From IMG/VR virus record IMGVR_UViG_3300020446_000035, positions 1 through 35,893 of that record: a stretch of DNA of 35,893 nt. One strand, written 5' to 3'. Every line of letters begins with the position of its first letter. The first letter of the stretch is position 1. This document shows, piece by piece, positions 1 through 22,098 of the stretch. This DNA is from a virus. The notes beneath the pieces were generated by a model that was not told the DNA's origin, ran no database searches, and worked only from the letters and a program-made list of their open reading frames with translations. The translations under genes were made by a program, and so were the position numbers.

Positions 1-156
1 AACGGGGCAGAGTTTGCGGAGCAGATGGTTCAGGACTGCGGATATATTAACCAAGAGTTGCCCTACTGGATAGAGGTAGACTGGGAGAAAACTTGGGACA
101 ATTTGAGTTATGATTACACAGAAATCAACGGTTATATATTCTCAAACAATTTCTAA
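1..156 (+). CDS. ArdA-like antirestriction protein, C-terminal part only
   Basis: This is the 3' end of a gene cut by the left edge, with 51 residues visible in frame 1 before a TAA at 154-156. The visible part is acidic, with many Asp/Glu and aromatic residues (GAEFAEQMVQDCGYINQELP, then a Trp-rich stretch, then DYTEINGYIFSNNF). An end of the form acidic helix, 'L..DY', 'INGYIF.N' resembles the C-terminus of ArdA-type DNA-mimic proteins, which inhibit type I restriction enzymes. That assignment is from memory of the family and rests on a short tail, so other acidic phage proteins remain possible. A G/C hairpin followed by a T-run lies 25 bases after the stop and would end its transcript. Confidence 0.5.
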   Translation, partial: NGAEFAEQMVQDCGYINQELPYWIEVDWEKTWDNLSYDYTEINGYIFSNNF

Positions 157-179
157 CGAATTGTAAAGATATGCTGACA

Positions 180-201
180 GGGGGGTTTTAATCCCCCTTT
201 T
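180..201 (+). terminator. Rho-independent terminator after the ArdA-like gene
   Basis: Five G (181-185) pair with five C (193-197) across a TTTTAAT loop. The stem can extend by G180-T198 and A179-T199. The C-run is followed directly by TTTT. This is the classic hairpin-plus-T-tract form, and it sits between two genes. Confidence 0.75.
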
Positions 202-206
202 GTCTG

Positions 207-212
207 TATAAT
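207..212 (+). promoter_or_regulatory. Possible -10 box (TATAAT)
   Basis: A perfect TATAAT lies just downstream of the terminator and 26 bases before the 85-aa gene. No convincing -35 box is seen about 17 bases upstream, where the terminator hairpin lies. It may be an early promoter or chance in AT-rich DNA. Confidence 0.4.
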
Positions 213-238
213 AAAGGTATAAGATTTATTTTCCCCTT

Positions 239-496
239 ATGAACAACTTAACTCAAAGACTTATTAACAGAATCCAAGAGAAAGAATCATTCTTGGACAT
301 TGCCCACCTTTGCGAAGACTTCCAAACATTTTGCAATGAAATCAACGAATGGGGTGTAGACCACATTGGAGGGGTTGACCTCTACGGTGCAGGGTTTCTT
401 CCTAACCCAGAATTAGACCTTGACGCATTAGACAATTTCTTTGCTTCCTTTGGTTGCACACCTTCTAACCCTCATCCTTGCAGTAAATACTTTTAA
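239..496 (+). CDS. Hypothetical acidic protein (85 aa)
   Basis: This is a free-standing ORF with terminator-like hairpins on both sides, so it is probably transcribed alone from the TATAAT box upstream. The product is acidic, starts with a short basic helix (residues 1-15) and has Gly-rich and Pro-rich segments (IGGVDLYGAGFLP, then TPSNPHPCSKYF). It has three or four cysteines, no signal peptide and no membrane segment. No close Shine-Dalgarno sequence precedes the ATG; an AAAGG lies about 21 bases upstream. I do not recognise the family. Its size and setting are typical of small early phage proteins that act on host functions, but that is inference. Confidence 0.6.
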   Translation: MNNLTQRLINRIQEKESFLDIAHLCEDFQTFCNEINEWGVDHIGGVDLYGAGFLPNPELDLDALDNFFASFGCTPSNPHPCSKYF

Positions 497-505
497 GGAA
501 AATTT

Positions 506-537
506 AAGATTTGGGAGAGTCAAAACTCCCAAATCTT
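506..537 (+). terminator. Perfect 12-bp hairpin, probable terminator
   Basis: AAGATTTGGGAG (506-517) is perfectly complementary to CTCCCAAATCTT (526-537) around an 8-base loop AGTCAAAA. Only a short T stretch (536-538) follows, so it is a weak intrinsic terminator, or a 3'-end stabiliser for the 85-aa message. It starts 9 bases after that gene's stop. Confidence 0.65.
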
Positions 538-546
538 TGCTACAAT
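538..546 (+). promoter_or_regulatory. Extended -10 promoter (TGCTACAAT)
   Basis: TG-n-TACAAT directly follows the hairpin and fits an extended -10 element, which can work without a good -35. Transcription would start near 553 and give a leader of about 50 bases for the gene at 602. The call is from sequence only. Confidence 0.45.
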
Positions 547-601
547 TAGAACATACAGGGAGACGCACTTCGACTTCTTCCATACGATCAAAAATCTTAA
601 A

Positions 602-1168
602 ATGAACTACCTACCAACAAAACTCCCAGAATACACAAAAGACTTTTCTGGTGAGTTACCGATTGAATCATTCCTACAATATGGATTTTACAAGATTGCA
701 GATGTTTCTCTAAAACCTGAAGAGAGATTTATCAAAAATCCAGAAGTCAATCCTATTCAGTACAATGTCGTTAAGGGATTAGAAGACAAGTACAACTCTT
801 ACAGAGAGTTAATTTATGCGATAGTGATTGACGGAAAAATTGTTAAAATCGGGGGAACATATGTAGGAATGAAAGGTAGACACAGTTCTTACAACTGCGG
901 AACACGCAAAGCTAGGAATAAAGGTACTTGTTCAGTTACCAACTTCAACATCACGGAAACACAGTACAACGCAATCTTAGAAGGAAAGAAAGTTGAATGG
1001 TTCGTCTTTGATGTACCCCTTGCAGAACAGACAATTAATCTTCCTTGGGGTGATGAAATCAAATACAACGCAAAGACATTTTACAAGTATGAGTCTTCTC
1101 TTTGCGACAAGTACCAACAGTTAACAGGACACTTTCCTCCCCTTAGTGATAACTCAGGGGTTGAGTAA
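602..1168 (+). CDS. Putative GIY-YIG-type nuclease
   Basis: This 188-residue protein has a central segment that fits the GIY-YIG/T5orf172-like nuclease plan. The first strand is LIYAIVIDGKIVKIGGT (residues 70-86), with Tyr72 and the Lys82-Ile-Gly pair standing for the two half motifs. A Gly-Arg pair follows (Arg93, candidate catalytic Arg), and a late Glu164 in KYESSLCDKY could be the metal-binding Glu. The family contains homing endonucleases, restriction enzymes and phage DNA-degrading enzymes. The first 65 residues match nothing I know. The gene stands alone, with a hairpin on either side and an extended -10 upstream. No Shine-Dalgarno is evident just before the ATG, although AGGGAGA lies about 40 bases upstream. 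The match is by motif pattern only; the catalytic assignment is inference. Confidence 0.5.
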   Translation: MNYLPTKLPEYTKDFSGELPIESFLQYGFYKIADVSLKPEERFIKNPEVNPIQYNVVKGLEDKYNSYRELIYAIVIDGKIVKIGGTYVGMKGRHSSYNCGTRKARNKGTCSVTNFNITETQYNAILEGKKVEWFVFDVPLAEQTINLPWGDEIKYNAKTFYKYESSLCDKYQQLTGHFPPLSDNSGVE

Positions 1169-1174
1169 AGTTTT

Positions 1175-1210
1175 GTTTCAGTTCGTGGATATTTACCCCA
1201 CGGACTGAAC
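1175..1210 (+). terminator. Stable 12-bp hairpin after the nuclease gene
   Basis: The left arm 1175-1188 pairs with the right arm 1198-1210 (CCACGGACTGAAC). There is one G-T pair, one bulged T and a 9-base loop. It begins 6 bases after the stop codon. No T-run follows, so it may be a weak terminator, an mRNA-end protector or a processing site. Confidence 0.5.
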
Positions 1211-1229
1211 ATATTCGTTATACTAAGTA

Positions 1230-1237
1230 TATAAATT
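1230..1237 (+). promoter_or_regulatory. Late-type promoter box (TATAAATT)
   Basis: The box differs from the T4 late consensus TATAAATA by one base and lies 15 bases before the ATG of the 58-aa gene. A TATACT (1219-1224) just upstream could instead be a host-type -10. Either is weak evidence on its own. Confidence 0.4.
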
Positions 1238-1252
1238 AAATCCCTTATTATT

Positions 1253-1429
1253 ATGTTAATAACAAAATTTGTTGAAGTCCCTAATACAAACATCAAAGAA
1301 GAAGTCACAAACGACTTTGGATTTGACCTCTGCTATGACATGGCACAGGAGCACGGACATGCTCAATTGGTCTGGTATGCTCTTAACGGAAAGAGAGTTG
1401 TAGAGGGTGAGTACACCGACAGGGACTAA
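1253..1429 (+). CDS. Small hypothetical protein (58 aa)
   Basis: This short ORF starts at ATG 1253 and stops at TAA 1427. The translation begins MLITKFVEVPNTNIKEEV and ends in a charged tail, GKRVVEGEYTDRD. The middle holds His/Gln/Trp (EHGHAQLVWYAL). It is a soluble, mixed-charge protein with no signal or membrane segment. Codon choice and composition resemble those of the genes on either side. A promoter-like box precedes it and a perfect 8-bp hairpin follows, which supports a real transcription unit. The minus-strand ORF across its start is less plausible, because every other gene in the window reads +. I do not recognise the family. Confidence 0.5.
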   Translation: MLITKFVEVPNTNIKEEVTNDFGFDLCYDMAQEHGHAQLVWYALNGKRVVEGEYTDRD

Positions 1430-1445
1430 CCCTCCCCCCTCTCAT

Positions 1446-1466
1446 CAGTCTCACCCCATGAGACTG
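1446..1466 (+). terminator. Perfect 8-bp hairpin (CAGTCTCA/TGAGACTG)
   Basis: CAGTCTCA (1446-1453) and TGAGACTG (1459-1466) form a perfect stem with a CCCCA loop, 17 bases after the stop of the 58-aa gene. The downstream sequence TTCGTTCG is only moderately T-rich. It is a probable terminator or mRNA-end structure. Confidence 0.5.
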
Positions 1467-1674
1467 TTCGTTCGTGATGCAGCAGGTGTGGGGCGGTTGC
1501 CCCCCCTTATATAAAAACGCAAGGTACCATTAAGCTATAAACGACCCAGATCGACTTCCCTATCGAAAACGCAATGGAATTACACAGGGGGTACAGAATT
1601 TTTTTCGTGTGTAAAAATGCCCATATAGGGTCGCAGAGAATACGTAAGTACTATATACTGGAAAAGTGAAAAAT
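1467..1674 (+). other. Structured, relatively GC-rich intergenic region
   Basis: This is about 210 bases without a convincing gene. It holds a second compact hairpin, GGGGC-GGTT-GCCCC (1490-1503), followed by CCCTTATATAAAAA. It also has a six-base inverted pair, TACACA (1581-1586) with TGTGTA (1608-1613), around a T-run, and a TATACT (1654-1659) that could be a -10 box for the next gene. A 31-codon ORF (1574-1669) is present but unsupported. No tRNA cloverleaf was found by eye. The run of structures leaves room for a small RNA or a regulatory leader. Confidence 0.35.
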
Positions 1675-1854
1675 ATGACCCTTATGAAGAAGTACGAAGA
1701 TTCAAAAGTATTACTGAATACAGATCCAGTTACAAACGAGTTTAAGATCACGGTGCCAGAATGGGTCGTCAATGAATTTGATTGGTATGAAGATACTGAA
1801 TTAGTTTGGCACGTTGACGACAGTGGGATTCATATTCAAGAAATCAGTGATTGA
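1675..1854 (+). CDS. AbrB-like small protein (59 aa)
   Basis: ATG 1675 is preferred over the GTG at 1666, because GGAAAAG (1660-1666) is a Shine-Dalgarno-like site at normal spacing for the ATG. The protein has an alternating strand pattern: a KVLLNTDP strand, FKITVPEWVV, then an acidic DWYEDTELVWHVDDSGIHIQE. The order 'strand, I-x-P, helix, W-x-x-x-x-x-L-x-W, D-x-x-G-I' resembles the swapped-hairpin fold of AbrB/MazE-type small proteins and small conserved proteins of cyanomyoviruses. If correct, it could bind DNA or act as an antitoxin-like regulator, but it is more acidic than typical DNA-binding members. Its stop overlaps the -35 box of the next operon. The fold is inferred from pattern only. 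Confidence 0.55.
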   Translation: MTLMKKYEDSKVLLNTDPVTNEFKITVPEWVVNEFDWYEDTELVWHVDDSGIHIQEISD

Positions 1855-1879
1855 CAAGTTGTATAAATTACAGTATGAT
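1851..1879 (+). promoter_or_regulatory. Strong sigma-70-type promoter with a late box in its spacer
   Basis: TTGACA (1851-1856) is followed by a 17-base spacer and TATGAT (1874-1879), so the -35 is perfect and the -10 has one mismatch. Inside the spacer lies TATAAATT (1862-1869), one base from the T4 late box. The pair would let both unmodified host polymerase and the late phage sigma factor start the operon that begins at 1902. The -35 overlaps the preceding stop codon. Confidence 0.7.
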
Positions 1880-1901
1880 ATGAATGTAATTACAACACAT
1901 T

Positions 1902-2798
1902 ATGGCGAAAGGATTTACAGTTAAAGCAAAGTCACCAGTAGCAAAATCAAAACCCCCTGAGTGGGATTATACACTGGCAAGACAATTAGTAAGAGGAAAG
2001 ACAATCGTATTTTGTTTACCTGGTCGAGGAGTATCTTATAATTTTCTAAAGAGTTTTGTATCATTATCATTTGATCTGGTACAGGCAGGAGCAGCGATTC
2101 AAATATCTCAGGATTATTCATCAATGGTGAATTTTGCAAGATGCAAATGTCTTGGAGCAAATGTATTACGTGGAGCAAATCAGTTACCATGGGATGGAAA
2201 ACTCAATTATGATTATCAGCTCTGGATTGACTCAGATATTGTATTCAACACAGAGAAGTTCTATCAGTTAATACTGAATGCAATTCCAGCAGATGCAGTT
2301 GAGAAGGAAGCAGTTACAGAAGTGATGAAGAATGAGAAAGGAGAAGTTGTCAAGAATGAAGATGGAACAGATGCAACTAAATTTGCAGGACATCGTTTAA
2401 AGATTGATACAACAAAGGAACGTTCAATTGTTGCAGGTTGGTACTGCACCGAAGATGGAAAAACAACGTCCGTTGCTCACTGGTTAGATGAAGAAGATTT
2501 TCGTACGAATGGTGGTGTGATGAATCATGAAACCATTGAAAGTATCAGTAAGAGAAGAAAACCTTTCACTGTTGACTATACTGGTTTTGGTTGGTTACTC
2601 ATTAAGAAAGGAGTCTTTGAACATGAAGGCATGCCTTATCCATGGTTTGCACCAAAGATGCAGATATTTGAATCAGGAGAGGTTCAGGATATGTGCGGTG
2701 AGGACGTATCTTTCTGTTTAGATGCAAAAGAGGCAGGATTTGAAATATGGTGTGATCCTCGTATCAGAGTCGGTCACGAGAAAACACGAATCATTTAA
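1902..2798 (+). CDS. GT-A fold glycosyltransferase
   Basis: This 298-residue protein has the hallmarks of a GT-A (family 2-like) sugar transferase. An N-terminal strand TIVFCLPGRGVSY (34-46) would begin the nucleotide-sugar fold. LWIDSDIVF (107-115) carries the DxD-type metal motif Asp110-Ser-Asp112. Near the C-terminus, CGEDVSFCLDAKEAGF (265-280) gives the acidic GED signature, followed by IWCDPRIRVGH with a candidate metal ligand His292. A charged stretch of about 30 residues (131-165) rich in Lys/Glu looks like an inserted loop. There is no signal peptide. The gene is first in the operon behind the strong promoter at 1851. Related enzymes are common in cyanomyoviruses near gp25; the acceptor (DNA, virion protein or host glycan) cannot be told from sequence. 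The stop overlaps the next start (TAATG). Confidence 0.8.
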   Translation: MAKGFTVKAKSPVAKSKPPEWDYTLARQLVRGKTIVFCLPGRGVSYNFLKSFVSLSFDLVQAGAAIQISQDYSSMVNFARCKCLGANVLRGANQLPWDGKLNYDYQLWIDSDIVFNTEKFYQLILNAIPADAVEKEAVTEVMKNEKGEVVKNEDGTDATKFAGHRLKIDTTKERSIVAGWYCTEDGKTTSVAHWLDEEDFRTNGGVMNHETIESISKRRKPFTVDYTGFGWLLIKKGVFEHEGMPYPWFAPKMQIFESGEVQDMCGEDVSFCLDAKEAGFEIWCDPRIRVGHEKTRII

Positions 2799-2959
2799 TG
2801 ACAAAATACAATCTTCTAAGAAATGGTAAGATCATTTTCTGGGATTTATCAGAGAATGAATTACTGGATCGACTCGAAGACTTCGCAGTGGAACAATATG
2901 TCACTGGGGAAAATATAAATGCACAAATTACTTATGAACCTGTAAAGGAGGAGAACTAA
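2798..2959 (+). CDS. Small hypothetical protein (53 aa)
   Basis: The ATG at 2798 shares its A with the stop of the glycosyltransferase gene, so translation is probably coupled. The product is acidic: MTKYNLLRNGKIIFWDLSEN, then an amphipathic helix ELLDRLEDFAVEQY, then an ITYEPVKEEN tail. The 'N-G-K-I' turn followed by a short helix suggests a small alpha/beta domain. The last codons contain AAGGAGGAG (2945-2953), which serves as the ribosome binding site of the next gene. I do not recognise the family; the gene call rests on coupling, codon use and gap-free packing. Confidence 0.6.
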   Translation: MTKYNLLRNGKIIFWDLSENELLDRLEDFAVEQYVTGENINAQITYEPVKEEN

Positions 2960-3103
2960 ATGGCAAAGGGAATGTTAAGTGGAGCGTCTTACAATCGTGA
3001 TGCTCGACCCAAAAAATCTCGACAGGGAACTGGAAAACACTCTAAATATTCAGCGACCTCTCGTAACTCGGCTCGCAAGAGATACCGTGGACAAGGAAAA
3101 TGA
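2960..3103 (+). CDS. Small, very basic conserved phage protein (47 aa)
   Basis: The start follows the previous stop without a gap and has the best Shine-Dalgarno site in the area (AAGGAGG, 6-13 bases upstream). The product is extremely rich in Lys/Arg/Gly/Ser, with MAKGMLSGASYNRDARPKKS at the start and an ARKRYRGQGK end. No hydrophobic core is visible, so it is probably disordered and may bind nucleic acid or coat an acidic partner. From memory, similar tiny basic proteins with an 'RPKK.RQG' and '.YRGQGK' pattern recur in cyanomyovirus genomes near gp25, without assigned function. The stop overlaps the next start (AAATGA). Confidence 0.7.
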   Translation: MAKGMLSGASYNRDARPKKSRQGTGKHSKYSATSRNSARKRYRGQGK

Positions 3104-3237
3104 GACCTCAAAGAATCATACAAGGAAAACGTGGAAAGATACCCGTTGATATGTCAGATGATTTCTACCATCACGGAAATGAATATTGTCGGTATTTAAT
3201 TACGGACTATCGTTGTGATCAATTACTGAAAAAATAA
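3100..3237 (+). CDS. Small hypothetical protein (45 aa)
   Basis: The ATG at 3100 overlaps the stop of the basic peptide, and the TAA at 3235 overlaps the next ATG (TAATG), so the gene fills its slot exactly. The protein starts MRPQRIIQGKRGKIPVDMSD and continues with His/Tyr/Cys (FYHHGNEYCRYLITDYRCDQ). Two cysteines and two adjacent histidines could bind a metal, but the spacing fits no standard zinc ribbon. I do not recognise it. The reading frame is supported by coupling on both sides. Confidence 0.6.
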   Translation: MRPQRIIQGKRGKIPVDMSDDFYHHGNEYCRYLITDYRCDQLLKK

Positions 3238-3686
3238 TGTATTGTCGAATTCGATTAAAGGACACAAACTATCAAGAGTATGAAGAATGTCGTATTCTTG
3301 ATAGTTCTTATTATAAGGAGTGTCTTGAAATATATCGTAAGTATGTTGAATATAAAGAGTTTGAGGATGTAGTGCCTGTATTTAAGGAAGAGTTTGAAAT
3401 ACCTCATTGTGATGTCTTAGGTTATCATGATAAGGGTAAACTTGTTGCTTTTACATTGGCTTATCGTTTTGATAGTCTCAATAGTGTATGGGGAGATCAA
3501 TTTGCTTGGGATTATGAAAATCCAAAGTTAAGTATGGGGCATATTGCAAATAAACATGAATTTGCCTACTATAAAAGATTAGGTTATGATTATTACTATC
3601 TGGGAGAGTCTGTACCATATATGGAAAAGTATGATGGATATGAAGTCTCCAATTTCTTTAAGGACTGGGAAGGATGGCAAAACTAA
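3237..3686 (+). CDS. GNAT-like acyltransferase, arginyl-tRNA-protein transferase-like
   Basis: This 149-residue protein has the late half of a GNAT/ATE-type fold. GKLVAFTLAYRFDSLNSVWG (67-86) is a strand-turn-strand, followed by a helix GHIANKHEFAYYKRLG (101-116) and the strand YDYYYLGE (117-124). The order 'lV.f.l.yrf', 'l...E..yykrlGydYyYLGe' matches the C-terminal domain of arginyl/leucyl-tRNA-protein transferases, which add an amino acid to protein N-termini. The N-terminal Cys-rich part of true ATEs is absent, so this may be a stand-alone acyltransferase with a different substrate. The start overlaps the previous stop, and the last 13 bases overlap the next gene. The family call is by pattern; the activity is inference. 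Confidence 0.5.
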   Translation: MYCRIRLKDTNYQEYEECRILDSSYYKECLEIYRKYVEYKEFEDVVPVFKEEFEIPHCDVLGYHDKGKLVAFTLAYRFDSLNSVWGDQFAWDYENPKLSMGHIANKHEFAYYKRLGYDYYYLGESVPYMEKYDGYEVSNFFKDWEGWQN

Positions 3687-4330: not shown

Positions 4331-4787
4331 GTATATTTTACATTGGATTGGTCAATTATCTAAAATTCGACCAGAATTGGGTAATTTTGCAATATGTCCT
4401 TATGCATCAAAGGCAAATTTCGTAATTATTGACGAAAAATTAAGTCAAATTATGCCAAACGATGATTACAATGTTGTAATTTATGTGGTTGAAGATGATA
4501 TTGATGCAAATTTCTTATATGACGCAGTTGATGACTATAATCGTAACTATCCTGACTATAAATTCATTGCAGATCATGGAAAAACGAAGACTTATATACA
4601 AGGAATACAGACAAGTAATGGAAAATACAACCTTGTACTCTGTCAACCTCGTCAGGAATTGACAGAAGCAAGAAAAAAACTCGCAAAAACAACTTATTAT
4701 GATTATTGGGACAAAAATTACCTTGAAGAAGTGTTAGAGGATGATTATGAGGTCGTTGAAATTCATATTTCACCAGAATTAGAATGA
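4311..4787 (+). CDS. Conserved phage protein of unknown function (158 aa)
   Basis: The start is placed at ATG 4311, giving MKDEKSRYILHWIGQLSKIR, rather than at the GTG at 4278, which would add 11 residues and a longer overlap. The N-terminus has a Trp-containing helix followed by FAICPYASKANFVII, a Cys-Pro-Tyr/Phe-Ala pattern also seen in DUF1415-like proteins. NGKYNLVLCQPRQELTEARK follows in the second half, then a Tyr-rich DYWDKNYL. Homologues in marine myoviruses, as I recall them, start with the same 'K.kYI..WI.QL' segment, which supports the start. The function is unknown. The gene's last four bases overlap speD (ATGA). Confidence 0.65.
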   Translation: MKDEKSRYILHWIGQLSKIRPELGNFAICPYASKANFVIIDEKLSQIMPNDDYNVVIYVVEDDIDANFLYDAVDDYNRNYPDYKFIADHGKTKTYIQGIQTSNGKYNLVLCQPRQELTEARKKLAKTTYYDYWDKNYLEEVLEDDYEVVEIHISPELE

Positions 4788-5125
4788 AAAGTCAAGAAAT
4801 GGGCAAACATTTACTTCTTGAGGTGTATGATGTAGAGTATGATGCTTTGAATGATTACATTTTTCTCAAAGATTTGCTTTTTAATGGTATCATGAAGTCA
4901 AAAAGTAAGATATTGAATACTTTTATACATGAATTTAATCCACAAGGTTGTACAATCATCTTTGCACTCGCAGAGAGTCATGTTTCTCTTCATACATGGC
5001 CAGAAAAAGGTTGTTTATCTGCTGATTTCTATACTTGTGGTGATAAAGATCCAAAAATAATTGCAAATTCTCTCATTGAGGGGTTAAAATCAAAAAAACA
5101 TCGAATTCGATTATTAAATCGTTAA
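4784..5125 (+). CDS. speD: S-adenosylmethionine decarboxylase proenzyme
   Basis: This 113-residue class 1B AdoMet decarboxylase makes decarboxylated AdoMet for spermidine synthesis. The self-cleavage and active-site block is intact: ALAESHVSLHTWPEKG (61-76) has the Glu64-Ser65 cleavage pair, with Ser65 becoming the pyruvoyl group. His70 and Cys85 (in YTCGD) match the processing and catalytic His and Cys of bacterial and archaeal enzymes. The N-terminus MKSQEMGKHLLLEVYDV fits the family; a second ATG at 4799 (MGKHL) is a possible start. The length is near the usual 115-130. It is a known auxiliary metabolic gene of cyanomyoviruses and lies directly upstream of gp25. No spermidine synthase gene is in the window, so host enzymes would have to finish the pathway. 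It is the last gene of the operon that starts at 1902. Confidence 0.93.
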   Translation: MKSQEMGKHLLLEVYDVEYDALNDYIFLKDLLFNGIMKSKSKILNTFIHEFNPQGCTIIFALAESHVSLHTWPEKGCLSADFYTCGDKDPKIIANSLIEGLKSKKHRIRLLNR

Positions 5126-5160: not shown

Positions 5161-5562
5161 ATGGCGATACAACGCAAATCAAGAGCATTTAAGGATATAA
5201 GTTTGTCTTTTTCACCTCATCCAGTGACGAAAGACTTGCCTGTATTAATAAATGAACGTGCGATTATTCGATCAGTGAGAAATTTAGTTGAAACAATACC
5301 AACAGAGAGGTTTTTTAATCCTTTAATTGGTACAGACATACGTGATTCTTTATTTGAAAATTATACACGTACTACAGTTACCATAATTGAAGATCAAGTT
5401 CGTGAGATACTCGATATCTTTGAACCAAGAGTTAATCAAGTTAATGTTGAGGTTTCTGCAAGACCAAATAATAATGTATTAGATGTGAAAGTATTTTTTA
5501 CCATCAAGGGAGCAGATATTCCTCCACAAAGTTTTTCCTTTATATTAGAACCATCGAGATAA
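5161..5562 (+). CDS. 25: Baseplate wedge subunit gp25
   Basis: At 133 residues, this is almost the same length as T4 gp25 and belongs to the GPW/gp25 family, the small wedge protein that initiates sheath polymerisation at the baseplate. Typical elements are the N-terminal SRAFKDISLSFSPHPVTKDL, the ER-F-NP-IGTDIRDSLFE block (residues 49-65) and the helix VTIIEDQVREILDIFEPRV. The protein ends in alternating strands (VLDVKVFFTIKG). It acts in the inner baseplate bound to gp6. It is the first gene after the late promoter, and gp6 starts one base after its stop. No clear Shine-Dalgarno precedes it; the leader is A/T-rich. Confidence 0.93.
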   Translation: MAIQRKSRAFKDISLSFSPHPVTKDLPVLINERAIIRSVRNLVETIPTERFFNPLIGTDIRDSLFENYTRTTVTIIEDQVREILDIFEPRVNQVNVEVSARPNNNVLDVKVFFTIKGADIPPQSFSFILEPSR

Positions 5563-5563
5563 T

Positions 5564-7510
5564 ATGCCTTTTACTCAATTTACAAGTTTTGATTTTGAAG
5601 ATATCAAAATTCAAATTAAAGATTTTTTAAGATCGAATTCAAATTTTACTGATTTTGATTTTGAAGGTTCTAATTTTTCTGTTTTAATCGATACTTTAGC
5701 ATATAACACTTATATTAATGCCTTCAATGCAAACTTAGTTGCAAATGAGGCGTATCTTGATTCTGCGATTGTAAGAGAAAATGTAGTATCATTAGCACGT
5801 AATATAGGTTATGTTCCCCGAAGTCGCACAGCTGCTATTGCAAAAATTAAACTTGATGATGTAGATTTAGGAACAACAAACAATAATACAACAAAATTTT
5901 TAAAATTACGTGCTGGTCTTGTGTGCATTGGATCAGTTGAAAATACAACTTTTAGATTTTCTCTACCTGAAGATGTTACGTCATCAAGAATAGTTGACAT
6001 TGGTGGTAATTCATTTGCACAGTTTGATGATGAAATATCAATATTTGAAGGAACTTACTTAACACGAACTTTTATAGTTGATGCATCTATAGATGCGAGA
6101 TATATTATTGATAGTCCAAACATTGATACTTCAACACTTCGAGTATATGTTGGTGTTCAAGGTGAAACAAGTTTTGGTCGTAAATATTCACAAGTAGATA
6201 ATATTCTTAATTTATCAAAAACATCAGAAATTTATCTTGGTCAGGAAGTTCAAGATGAAAAGTTTGAAATATTATTTGGAGATGGTTTATTTGGTAAAAA
6301 ATTAGAAGATGGTCAACGTATCATCGCAACATATATTGTTACCGATGGAAAAGATGGAAATGGACCAAGTGAATTTAGTTTTCAAGGAACTTTTGCAAAA
6401 GATGACGGTACTTTCTTCACTCCATCAGATACCATATCAATAACCACCGTCTCTAACGCCACTGACGGGGCAGATGTTGAAAATGTGTCTTCTATTAAGT
6501 ATTTTGCTCCAAGACTTTACTCAGCACAATACAGAGCAGTTACACCAAGAGATTATGAAGCAATAATTAGTAATATTTTTCCACGAACTGAGTCAGTATC
6601 AGTTGTAGGTGGTGAAGAATTAGATCCACCACAATTTGGTAAAGTACAGATAAGTATAAAACCAAAAAACGGAAATTTTGTATCAGATTTCGATAAAACA
6701 ATAATAAAAAATAAATTGAAAAATTTTGCAGTTGCAGGTATTGATAATGAGATTGTCGATTTAAAAATTCTCTTTATTGAGATTGATACTAACGTATACT
6801 ATAATCCAGCACAAATTGCATCAGCACTTAATTTGAAATCAAGTATTTTAAGTGCTTTAAATTTATATTCAAATAATGTAGAGATTAATAAATTTGGAGG
6901 TCGTTTTAAATATAGTAAATTAAGTCAATTAATTGACCGTGTAAATGATGGGATTACTTCAAATATAACAACAGTTAAAATTAGAAGAGATTTAAAAGCA
7001 TTATTAAATCAATTCGCACAATATGAGTTATGTTTTGGTAATCGTTTCCATATTAATCCTGCAGGTTACAATATAAAGAGTACTGGATTTACTTTATCTG
7101 GAACAACTGGAACTGTTTTTCTTACTGATGTTCCAAATAAAGACGTTGCAGGAAATTTAGATGGTAGTAATAAAGGAACAATTTCTGTTGTGACTCGAAA
7201 TGAAAAAGATCAGCAAATTGTAGTCATTAAAGAGGCAGGTGGTGTTGATTATCTAAAAGGTGAAATACTATTAAATACAATTAATATTTCATCAACCGCA
7301 TCTGAAAATAATTTAATTGAGGTTCAAGCAGTCCCTGAATCAAATGATGTGGTTGGTTTGAAAGATTTATTTGTCGAATTTGACGTTTCAAATAGTTCGA
7401 TAAATATGTTGAAAGACGTAATTGCATCAGGAGAGGATGTTTCAGGTGTTGTGTTTACTAGAGACTACTATACCTCAAGTTACTCAAATGGAGTTTTAGA
7501 GAGGAAATAA
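5564..7510 (+). CDS. 6: Baseplate wedge subunit gp6
   Basis: This 648-residue protein (T4 gp6 is 660) is the wedge protein that forms the inner baseplate ring with gp25 and gp7. The N-terminus is FTSFDFEDIKIQIKDFLRSN, then a helix YNTYINAFNANLVANEAYLD and ARNIGYVPRSR. A baseplate-J-like signature follows near residues 234-262: FGDGLFGKKLEDGQRI, then GKDGNGPSEF. The next block (about 314-345) includes FAPRLYSAQYRAVTPRDYEA, also typical of the baseplate J/gp6 superfamily. The C-terminal 150 residues are rich in Gly/Asn/Thr strands, as in the other structural proteins here. It lies one base after gp25 and three bases before the next gene, and is co-transcribed with both. Confidence 0.92.
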   Translation: MPFTQFTSFDFEDIKIQIKDFLRSNSNFTDFDFEGSNFSVLIDTLAYNTYINAFNANLVANEAYLDSAIVRENVVSLARNIGYVPRSRTAAIAKIKLDDVDLGTTNNNTTKFLKLRAGLVCIGSVENTTFRFSLPEDVTSSRIVDIGGNSFAQFDDEISIFEGTYLTRTFIVDASIDARYIIDSPNIDTSTLRVYVGVQGETSFGRKYSQVDNILNLSKTSEIYLGQEVQDEKFEILFGDGLFGKKLEDGQRIIATYIVTDGKDGNGPSEFSFQGTFAKDDGTFFTPSDTISITTVSNATDGADVENVSSIKYFAPRLYSAQYRAVTPRDYEAIISNIFPRTESVSVVGGEELDPPQFGKVQISIKPKNGNFVSDFDKTIIKNKLKNFAVAGIDNEIVDLKILFIEIDTNVYYNPAQIASALNLKSSILSALNLYSNNVEINKFGGRFKYSKLSQLIDRVNDGITSNITTVKIRRDLKALLNQFAQYELCFGNRFHINPAGYNIKSTGFTLSGTTGTVFLTDVPNKDVAGNLDGSNKGTISVVTRNEKDQQIVVIKEAGGVDYLKGEILLNTINISSTASENNLIEVQAVPESNDVVGLKDLFVEFDVSNSSINMLKDVIASGEDVSGVVFTRDYYTSSYSNGVLERK

Positions 7511-20499: not shown

Positions 20500-22098
20500 A
20501 TGCCAGCGATTGTTACTGATCAATTTAGAATATTAAATGCAAATAATTTTGTAGAATCAGTAGAAAATACAAATAACTCATATTATGTGTTTGTTGGATT
20601 ACCAAATCCAGGTGGACCACCAGATGAAGCTCTTGTTGGTTACGGAAGATCATCTGATTGGGATGAACAAACTCCTGCACCAGAGGACAGTTTTTCATAT
20701 CGTGCTCATAGTCAAGATACAATGATGTATGGTAAAAAAATATCTTCTGGAAACGTTCGTAGATTAATTAGGAGAATAGATTGGGTTGAAGGTAGTAGAT
20801 ATGAAATTTATAGAGATGATTATAGTGCTAAGAATCAAAGTCCCATAACATCATCAAGTCGTTTATATGATGCAAATTATTATGTATTAAACTCTGATTT
20901 TAAAGTATATGTGTGCATTGATAACGGATCTTCTGGTAATAATGTTTTAGGAAATGTTTCTCAAGATGAACCAACATTCACAGATCTAGAACCATCAAAA
21001 GCAGGTAATAGTGGTGATGGTTATATATGGAAATATTTGTTCACTGTATCACCAAGCGATATTATTAAATTTGATGCTACAGAGTTTATAACAGTCCCAA
21101 ATAATTGGTCTTCATCTACTGACGCACAAATTATTAATGTTAGAGAGAATGGTGATTCGAGTATTAATTTAAATCAAATAAAACATGTTTACATTGAAAA
21201 AGAAGGTGCAAACTATACAAATGGTTTAGGTCAAGAGTGTGATATTATTGGTGACGGAACAGGAGCGAAAGCAAGAGTTGATGTTATCGGGGGAAAAATT
21301 GTTGATGTAACTGTAAGTGCAGGTGGACAAGGTTATAGTTACGGAGTTGTTGACCTTGGAAATATTGATAATAATAATCAAACAGCAGCAGATAAGGCAA
21401 AACTCATCCCAATTATTCCACCAGGTTTAGGTCATGGACATGACATTTACACTGAATTGGGAACTGATAAAGTTATTTGTTATGCGAGATTTGATGACAG
21501 CACAAAAGATTTTCCTATTGATACTATTTTTTCTCAAGTTGGCATTGTAAAAAATCCAACTAAAATTGGTACATCAATTACATATACAGAGAGTACTTTT
21601 TCCTCACTGAAAGCATTAAAATTTGAATCCGTAACTGGAACTCCAGTCGTTGGGGAGATAATCAATCAAATATTAACTATTTCACCAAATGTAGGAAATG
21701 TGGCACAATCTTATGTTGCTTCTTTTGATATAGAAACAAAAGTTTTGAAATACTTTAATGATCGAACATTAAACTTCAATCGAACAACTTTTGATCAAAC
21801 TGATTATGTAGGAATATCTACACAGGGTAGGATTTATGATTTTGAAACTGGAGTGGGGATTAATGCTGTTAAAGGTCTTAAATCTAATTTTACAGGTTCA
21901 ATAGAAACTCAGTTTTCTGGGATTACCACTAATCCAGATGGCAATAAATTAATTAATTTAGGTATTAATTTTAATTCAGGGTTATCTGATAGTGAGATAA
22001 ATAAAGGGTCGGGTGAAGTTATCTACTTAGATAATCGACCAGAGATTAGTCGAAATACTCGACAAAAAGAGGACATCAAAATTATACTAGAGTTCTAA
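20500..22098 (+). CDS. 8: Baseplate wedge subunit gp8, enlarged
   Basis: The N-terminus AIVTDQFRILNANNFVES, the middle VRRLIRRIDWVEGSRYEIYR (about 87-106) and the block NSGDGYIWKYLFTVSPSDII match the T4 gp8 layout (IPRRDWG, EPGDGYVWEYLFEIPP). The end is diagnostic: SGEVIYLDNRPEISR and a final EDIKIILEF correspond to T4 SGEMIYMENRPPI and EINILFTF. T4 gp8 has 334 residues and this protein has 532. The extra length lies mostly after about residue 225 and includes a module at 230-286 (EKEGANYTNGLGQECDIIGD, then AGGQGYSYGVVDLGN) shared with other structural proteins here. gp8 dimers link gp7, gp6 and gp10 in the T4 wedge. The next gene starts one base after the stop. Confidence 0.9.
   Translation: MPAIVTDQFRILNANNFVESVENTNNSYYVFVGLPNPGGPPDEALVGYGRSSDWDEQTPAPEDSFSYRAHSQDTMMYGKKISSGNVRRLIRRIDWVEGSRYEIYRDDYSAKNQSPITSSSRLYDANYYVLNSDFKVYVCIDNGSSGNNVLGNVSQDEPTFTDLEPSKAGNSGDGYIWKYLFTVSPSDIIKFDATEFITVPNNWSSSTDAQIINVRENGDSSINLNQIKHVYIEKEGANYTNGLGQECDIIGDGTGAKARVDVIGGKIVDVTVSAGGQGYSYGVVDLGNIDNNNQTAADKAKLIPIIPPGLGHGHDIYTELGTDKVICYARFDDSTKDFPIDTIFSQVGIVKNPTKIGTSITYTESTFSSLKALKFESVTGTPVVGEIINQILTISPNVGNVAQSYVASFDIETKVLKYFNDRTLNFNRTTFDQTDYVGISTQGRIYDFETGVGINAVKGLKSNFTGSIETQFSGITTNPDGNKLINLGINFNSGLSDSEINKGSGEVIYLDNRPEISRNTRQKEDIKIILEF

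Follow-up and report, generated by a model that had tools for sequence, protein, structure and literature searches.

What separates the small genes at the left end of a cyanophage genome fragment, and do the separating segments take part in the exchange of those genes? The question is raised by the IMG/VR virus record IMGVR_UViG_3300020446_000035 (positions 1 to 35,893; 35.9 kb, the whole of which is hereafter called the window), in which single genes of the first 1.9 kb alternate with short non-coding joints, most of them comprising a hairpin followed by a promoter-like −10 box. The answer that we favour, and hold to be very probably correct, is that this left region consists of single-gene units joined by recombining composite terminator/early-promoter cassettes of the type called promoter-early stem-loops (PeSLs) in T4-like phages. 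Comparison with related loci, on which this answer rests, establishes the architecture itself; it also shows that whole genes have been gained, lost and replaced, and that a single joint is reused between different genes.

Relatives were collected from IMG/VR by protein search, which returned 33 loci for the 58-amino-acid (aa) protein of the region, 65 for the 85-aa protein and 23 for the 188-aa nuclease, and about 95 related loci (designated by L numbers) were compared. In the 58-aa and 85-aa locus sets, the right border of the region, that is, the gene of a 62-aa protein and then a glycosyltransferase gene, is stable, and to its left the ardA-like, 85-aa, nuclease and 58-aa genes come and go between loci and vary in their order. 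The order is 85-aa, nuclease, f26 (a further gene family) in L040; ardA-like, 85-aa, 58-aa in L035; 85-aa, f26 in L036 and L038; and 85-aa, another open reading frame (ORF), 58-aa in L037. In L040 and L038, f26 takes the place of the 58-aa gene; since f26 is weakly linked to the 58-aa family, this swap may exchange distant relatives. The other ORF of L037 (1509–2081; phrog_10849) lies in the nuclease slot and shows a weak match to a type II restriction enzyme (PADLOC, E 3e-5). An initial annotation of this DNA had proposed an exchangeable accessory cassette of gene-plus-hairpin(-plus-promoter) units, to be doubted if the genes were fixed in order in all relatives or the hairpins were not conserved. 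Neither was found: gene order is not fixed, and the hairpins stay in the same places as their sequences change. The comparison refines the proposal in that the exchangeable unit appears to be bounded by shared joints, genes being swapped between joints and the joint often being kept. If the region were a conserved operon with internal hairpins for messenger RNA processing or stability, its variation would be gene decay only. Such an operon agrees with the placement of all genes on one strand and with the absence of a strong U-tail from three of the four hairpins, but genes are replaced and reordered besides being lost, the 58-aa gene standing either before or after the 85-aa gene, and the hairpins are tied to −10 boxes; we consider this explanation very improbable.

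The evidence that carries the favoured reading is the recurrence of the same joints between different genes. Among gene-pair types separated by a hairpin, 65 of 107 have a joint resembling one between two entirely different families, in contrast to 5 of 95 for gaps with a weak hairpin or none (Fisher p = 3e-18) and 0 of 25 in the structural block to the right; for gaps length-matched at 60–120 nucleotides (nt), the figures are 56 of 84 versus 3 of 43 (p = 3e-11), and 0 of 5 in the right block. Similar joints also recur within one contig in 16 contigs. A joint of L002 is 91% identical over 80 nt to one of L040, both flanking genes being different, and the nuclease–f26 joint of L160 is that found between 85-aa and f26 in L036. 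In L025 (2316–2371), the joint that the window has ahead of the nuclease (J2, 497–557) is found ahead of the 58-aa gene, with matched changes in its stem. The following joint (J3, 1165–1252) is seen in all four combinations of an upstream 85-aa or nuclease gene with a downstream 58-aa or f26 gene: nuclease/58-aa in the window, nuclease/f26 in L040 and L063, 85-aa/58-aa in L035, and 85-aa/f26 in L038 and, diverged, in L039; in L037 it lies between 85-aa and a third gene. Relative to L038, J3 is a 75–95% identical joint with unrelated sequence on both sides; relative to L040, identity is lost no farther than about 10 nt from the start codon, to resume after the next hairpin, and the identity profiles set the boundaries of J3 at gene ends. 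Its stem pairs are kept in 95% of cells, compensatory cells included. Because the same joints recur between different genes in related viruses, they are the apparent seams of gene swapping.

Alternatively, the genes might be independent morons, each with its own promoter and terminator, whose joints are alike merely through doing the same job. The −10 box, the start region and stems built of a G-run and a C-run are generic features, and the sequences of many stems vary from one relative to another, as morons would have it. However, identities of 75–91% over 80–90 nt take in loops and spacers without obvious function, the likeness is missing from length-comparable gaps that lack a strong hairpin, and a single joint is retained through a change of the gene to its left or right. 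The L002–L040 likeness and the gene-pair counts already suggest that joints standing between unrelated genes are of recent shared descent. We therefore regard independent morons as unlikely, and recombining joints as the better account.

The anatomy of the joints was examined in all same-strand gaps of 20–160 nt upstream of the glycosyltransferase gene (n = 468; 189 distinct at 80% identity), with a hairpin called strong at a folding free energy (dG) ≤ −9 kcal/mol. Strong hairpins are present in 54% of the 189 distinct gaps and in 53% of all 468; the corresponding share is 16% for shuffles of the full set and 8% for gaps of the right-hand block. In 75 of the 102 distinct hairpin joints (74%, versus 24% in shuffled sequence), the start of a −10 box falls in the range −6 to +12 nt relative to the end of the stem, and in 74 of these 75 the −35 window, at a 17-nt spacer, falls within the stem-loop; matches to TTGACA at at least five of six positions occur in 10, versus 1.2 expected. 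The distance from the upstream stop codon to the stem has a median of 12 nt, the joint consensus is TATAATAAnnAGTATAAA, the region downstream of the −10 box is a conserved start region, AGTATAAA, and the start codon follows the −10 box at a median of 34 nt. The same gene pair can be separated by hairpins of wholly different stem sequence in different phages (the pair flanking the first joint of the window included); hairpin structure outlives sequence. A genome-wide composite scan at a loose threshold was dropped, equal numbers of hits being obtained in the shuffled window, and the same-strand gap counts were used instead. Joints of the 58-aa and f26 type have TATATAAAT as their start region. 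This accounts for a late-like box that had been proposed near 1230: its place is that of the conserved start region, which in many joints lies 10 nt downstream of an early-type −10 box. Given this conserved position, the "late" boxes are more simply read as early-type start regions, a late promoter there being the alternative.

Two further features of the joints were recorded. Of the distinct hairpin-promoter joints, 43% carry a C-rich tract (CCCC, CCCT or TCCC) ahead of the start codon, versus 0 of 103 structural-block gaps; the tract is found in the window at 229–241 and 1241–1255 and also in relatives, and motifs resembling a Shine–Dalgarno sequence are rare in both sets. In many relatives (e.g., L049, L006 and L012), an imperfect inverted motif such as AGTGGACAGTTAACAAAGTGGCACA is frequent in the spacer that precedes the hairpin, and it recurs from one joint to another although the genes differ.

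In the window itself, where all genes and joints described here lie on the + strand, the visible 3′ end of the ArdA-like gene (1–156) is followed by joint J1 (157–238), with a hairpin at 179–198 that has a U-rich tail and sits within a longer weak stem, the −10 box TATAAT at 207–212 and a short leader. After the 85-aa gene (239–496), J2 (497–601 in full) has a hairpin at 506–537, the −10 box TACAAT at 541–546 and a nuclease leader hairpin at about 558–581; after the nuclease gene (602–1168), J3 (1169–1252 between the coding sequences) has a hairpin at 1177–1209, the −10 box TATACT at 1219–1224 and the start region AAGTATATAAAT. The 58-aa gene (1253–1429) is followed by J4 (1430–1665), which comprises a hairpin at 1446–1466, a second G+C-rich hairpin at about 1484–1508 and a conserved non-coding leader (1509–1668). 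The stems at 506–537, 1177–1209 and 1446–1466 are paired at 12 of 12, 11 of 12 and 8 of 8 positions, and, with dinucleotide shuffles as reference, the folding z-score is −1.6 over the entire 157–238 gap, −3.8 for 497–601, −3.4 for 1169–1252 and −4.0 for 1440–1475. A classic U-tail on the + strand is present only at the first hairpin, whose z-score is moderate. The boxes beginning at 207, 541 and 1219 start 3–9 nt past their stems. The expectation that every gene here would be followed by a hairpin is borne out for four of four genes in the 1–1429 region, and the accompanying claim of promoter-like boxes stands for three of the four hairpins. A plain scan of 1–3000 for the sigma-70 consensus gave no excess (9 sites versus 8.5 expected); the promoters reach significance only when anchored to hairpins and compared across relatives.

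Followed from the upstream stop codon, each joint consists of a spacer of about 12 nt, a hairpin of 7–13 base pairs (bp), TATAAT 0–9 nt farther on, AGTATAAA, and a start codon some 34 nt beyond the −10 box. Because the hairpin occupies the −35 position, transcription of one gene could finish and that of its neighbour begin within a single segment of 70–90 bp. In the predicted mechanism, host RNA polymerase would read the joints as early promoters, and the hairpins would terminate or protect transcripts. Phage homologous recombination between dispersed similar joints would then swap genes, sparing both coding sequence and regulation.

Several points weigh against this interpretation. No −10 box directly follows the hairpin at 1446–1466, and this hairpin is present in some relatives only, being absent from L040 and L036. 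At least four T in the 8 nt after the stem are found in 41% of joints versus 20% in the background, and with U-tracts so weak, termination is not assured. The covariation of J3 consists of few changes, with double changes at two pairs, and the likeness of joints could stem partly from shared function instead of descent. The loci are metagenomic and partly redundant, for which reason gene-pair types are given beside raw counts, and gene calls in relatives are partly erroneous, as illustrated by the 58-aa gene of L035, which was hidden until the sequence was read. Finally, the PeSL comparison is set by the descriptions given in citing papers (PMC4503421, PMC3950731).

As for the cargo, the 188-aa protein matches Hpy188I (PDB 3oqg) over 66 residues (residues 55–120; E 2.2e-9) in the GIY-YIG core, as well as PADLOC REase_II (3e-11) and the endonuclease family phrog_1111, and is thus a predicted Hpy188I-like GIY-YIG restriction-type enzyme. 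It differs from Hpy188I in its setting, no methyltransferase being found among the neighbouring window genes searched. Its presence suggests another explanation of the exchanges, in which the enzyme acts as a free-standing homing nuclease that spreads, together with its neighbours, by cutting phages without them, the joints being passive. The gene indeed stands among mobile genes and has different neighbours elsewhere (in L162 and in phages more distantly related), and its slot in L037 carries the other nuclease-like ORF described above. Most of the exchanged genes (85-aa, 58-aa, f26, f15 and others), however, move without an adjoining nuclease, and kinship with Hpy188I indicates a restriction-type enzyme; nuclease homing strikes us as distinctly unlikely, and we retain recombination between joints as the preferred reading. 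A conserved leader hairpin of the nuclease gene (GGGA-ACGCA...TTCCC; window 558–581) moves with the gene into other neighbourhoods (L160, L162, L163 and L164) and is possibly a translation control element. TCNGA, which we take to be the Hpy188I site, occurs 66 times in the window versus 96 expected (0.69), a mild depletion, compared with ratios of 0.85–1.00 in five other phage genomes; self-avoidance is not conclusive because other patterns are equally depleted.

The 51 aa visible of the gene at 1–156 match the anti-restriction family phrog_36653 (E 1e-12), and a full-length relative (L035, 268–672) does so at E 2.6e-30, which places the gene by sequence in a phage anti-restriction family. We call it ArdA-like only, because the match of this relative to the ArdA family PF07275 (E 0.0028, 18.7 bits) is below the curated Pfam cut-off of 27. 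The suggestion that antirestriction and nuclease functions lie side by side here is in agreement with both matches. The 85-aa and 58-aa proteins had been singled out as orphan candidates for anti-host or anti-defence factors, a view that the searches do not sustain: both belong to known cyanophage families (phrog_9580 and phrog_17176, neither with an assigned function), the former having 65 relatives in IMG/VR and occurring in 16 cyanophage isolate records and the latter having 33 relatives. Cultured cyanophages that carry the two families together include P-RSM4 and S-TIM4. Their structure models are confident (predicted local distance difference test, pLDDT, 89), but matched no solved fold in PDB; neither protein matched Pfam, NCBIfam or PADLOC, and no structural or profile link was found to ArdA, against which they were tested because small ArdA proteins have been reported (PMC12548430).

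The 62-aa gene (1666–1854; phrog_661) is the fixed right border of the variable region. Its leader (1509–1668) is a strongly conserved non-coding stretch, GCAAGGTACCATTAAGCTATAAACGACCC ... TTTACACAGGGGGTACAG ... CGTGTGTAAAAATG ... TACTATATACTGG, found in 42 loci and without a match in the phage isolate collection; no covariation in support of a structured RNA was found in it. Joint J5 (1851–1901), over the stop codon of the 62-aa gene, has a near-consensus promoter (TTGACA at 1851–1856, 17 nt, TATGAT at 1874–1879) overlapped by a palindrome (1858–1896), an arrangement kept in 43 loci. Since the homologue of the 62-aa protein in cyanophage S-SRM01 is annotated as DNA-binding, this site could be an operator for the 62-aa protein.

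The window is one virus record with T4-like cyanophage genes, and a fragment of a T4-like cyanophage of the Kyanoviridae type. To the right of the border, a 298-aa glycosyltransferase-like core gene (1902–2798, + strand; phrog_1574) opens the stable block and is followed by speD (4784–5125), g25 (5161–5562), g6 (5564–7510), an ORF of 4314 codons in the place of g7, between g6 and g8, and g8 (20500–22098) with the head–tail genes after it, in the order of T4-like phages. The homologue of this glycosyltransferase gene in S-SRM01 and P-SSM2 lies between a long run of small hypothetical genes and g25-g6-g7; this, together with the gene order of the relatives, marks 1–1900 as the right end of a hyperplastic (variable) region that precedes the glycosyltransferase-like gene, speD, g25, g6, g7 and g8. 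The initial annotation had also described tightly packed operons beyond the left region, which is supported by the non-coding share of the whole window (3.8%) and by the location of six of its seven same-strand gaps of 25–200 nt in the first 10 kb. Searches of the window for known RNA families and transfer RNAs found none. A 149-aa ORF at 3237–3686 has a sub-threshold match to the C-terminus of arginine-tRNA-protein transferase (E 2e-4).

Going beyond this locus, it is conceivable, though we hold the idea with considerable reserve, that the joints are a common adaptor across the marine cyanophage community and the variable region an open cassette platform. If so, any gene between two joints could be gained, lost or moved by joint recombination and come at once under an early promoter, and counter-restriction and nuclease genes would be traded between viral lineages. 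For the reshuffling of small variable-region genes in cyanophages, the dense recurring joints of wild marine relatives offer a concrete seam, with evidence at population scale in the form of the same joint with every neighbour combination. As a practical rule, a gene with such joints on both sides is a candidate for an early function that was traded recently.

These features are worth comparing with those of known systems. The hyperplastic regions of cyanomyoviruses (Millard 2009, as cited in PMC3037559) are, likewise, variable blocks among conserved structural genes, whereas hairpin-promoter joints as seams of exchange are not described in the accessible texts on them. In the archaeal virus HGTV-1, most ORFs along one side of the genome are preceded by PeSL-like motifs, each an inverted repeat with a TATA-like box, which have been proposed to aid regulation and shuffling (PMC3950731); promoter and host are archaeal there, and the likeness is one of layout. 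PeSLs proper, descriptions of which originate with Arbiol 2010 and Comeau 2014, are, as summarised in PMC4503421 and PMC3950731, hairpins with early promoter elements that mediate shuffling in T4-like phages; cyanophage S-PM2 was checked for them, and their density was too low to explain its gene acquisition (PMC4503421). Relative to these summaries, the present joints are alike in that a hairpin is combined with a promoter of early type, small accessory genes flank the joints, density is high in stretches of variable gene content, and the same element is seen between different genes; they differ in their cyanophage setting, in the conserved start region and in the often weak −35 box and U-tract. 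The same scan of phage RB49 gave hairpins placed likewise relative to the −35 and −10 positions, e.g., GTGTTGACAGGGGAGGATAACTCCCCTACAAT. A T4-like genome, a stem-loop with an early (host sigma-70-type) promoter, high density and the same element between unrelated sequences are all found here as features of the sequence. Since these agree with the described PeSLs, and the geometry matches that in RB49, we assign the joints, with a function predicted from sequence, to the PeSL kind, now in cyanophages.

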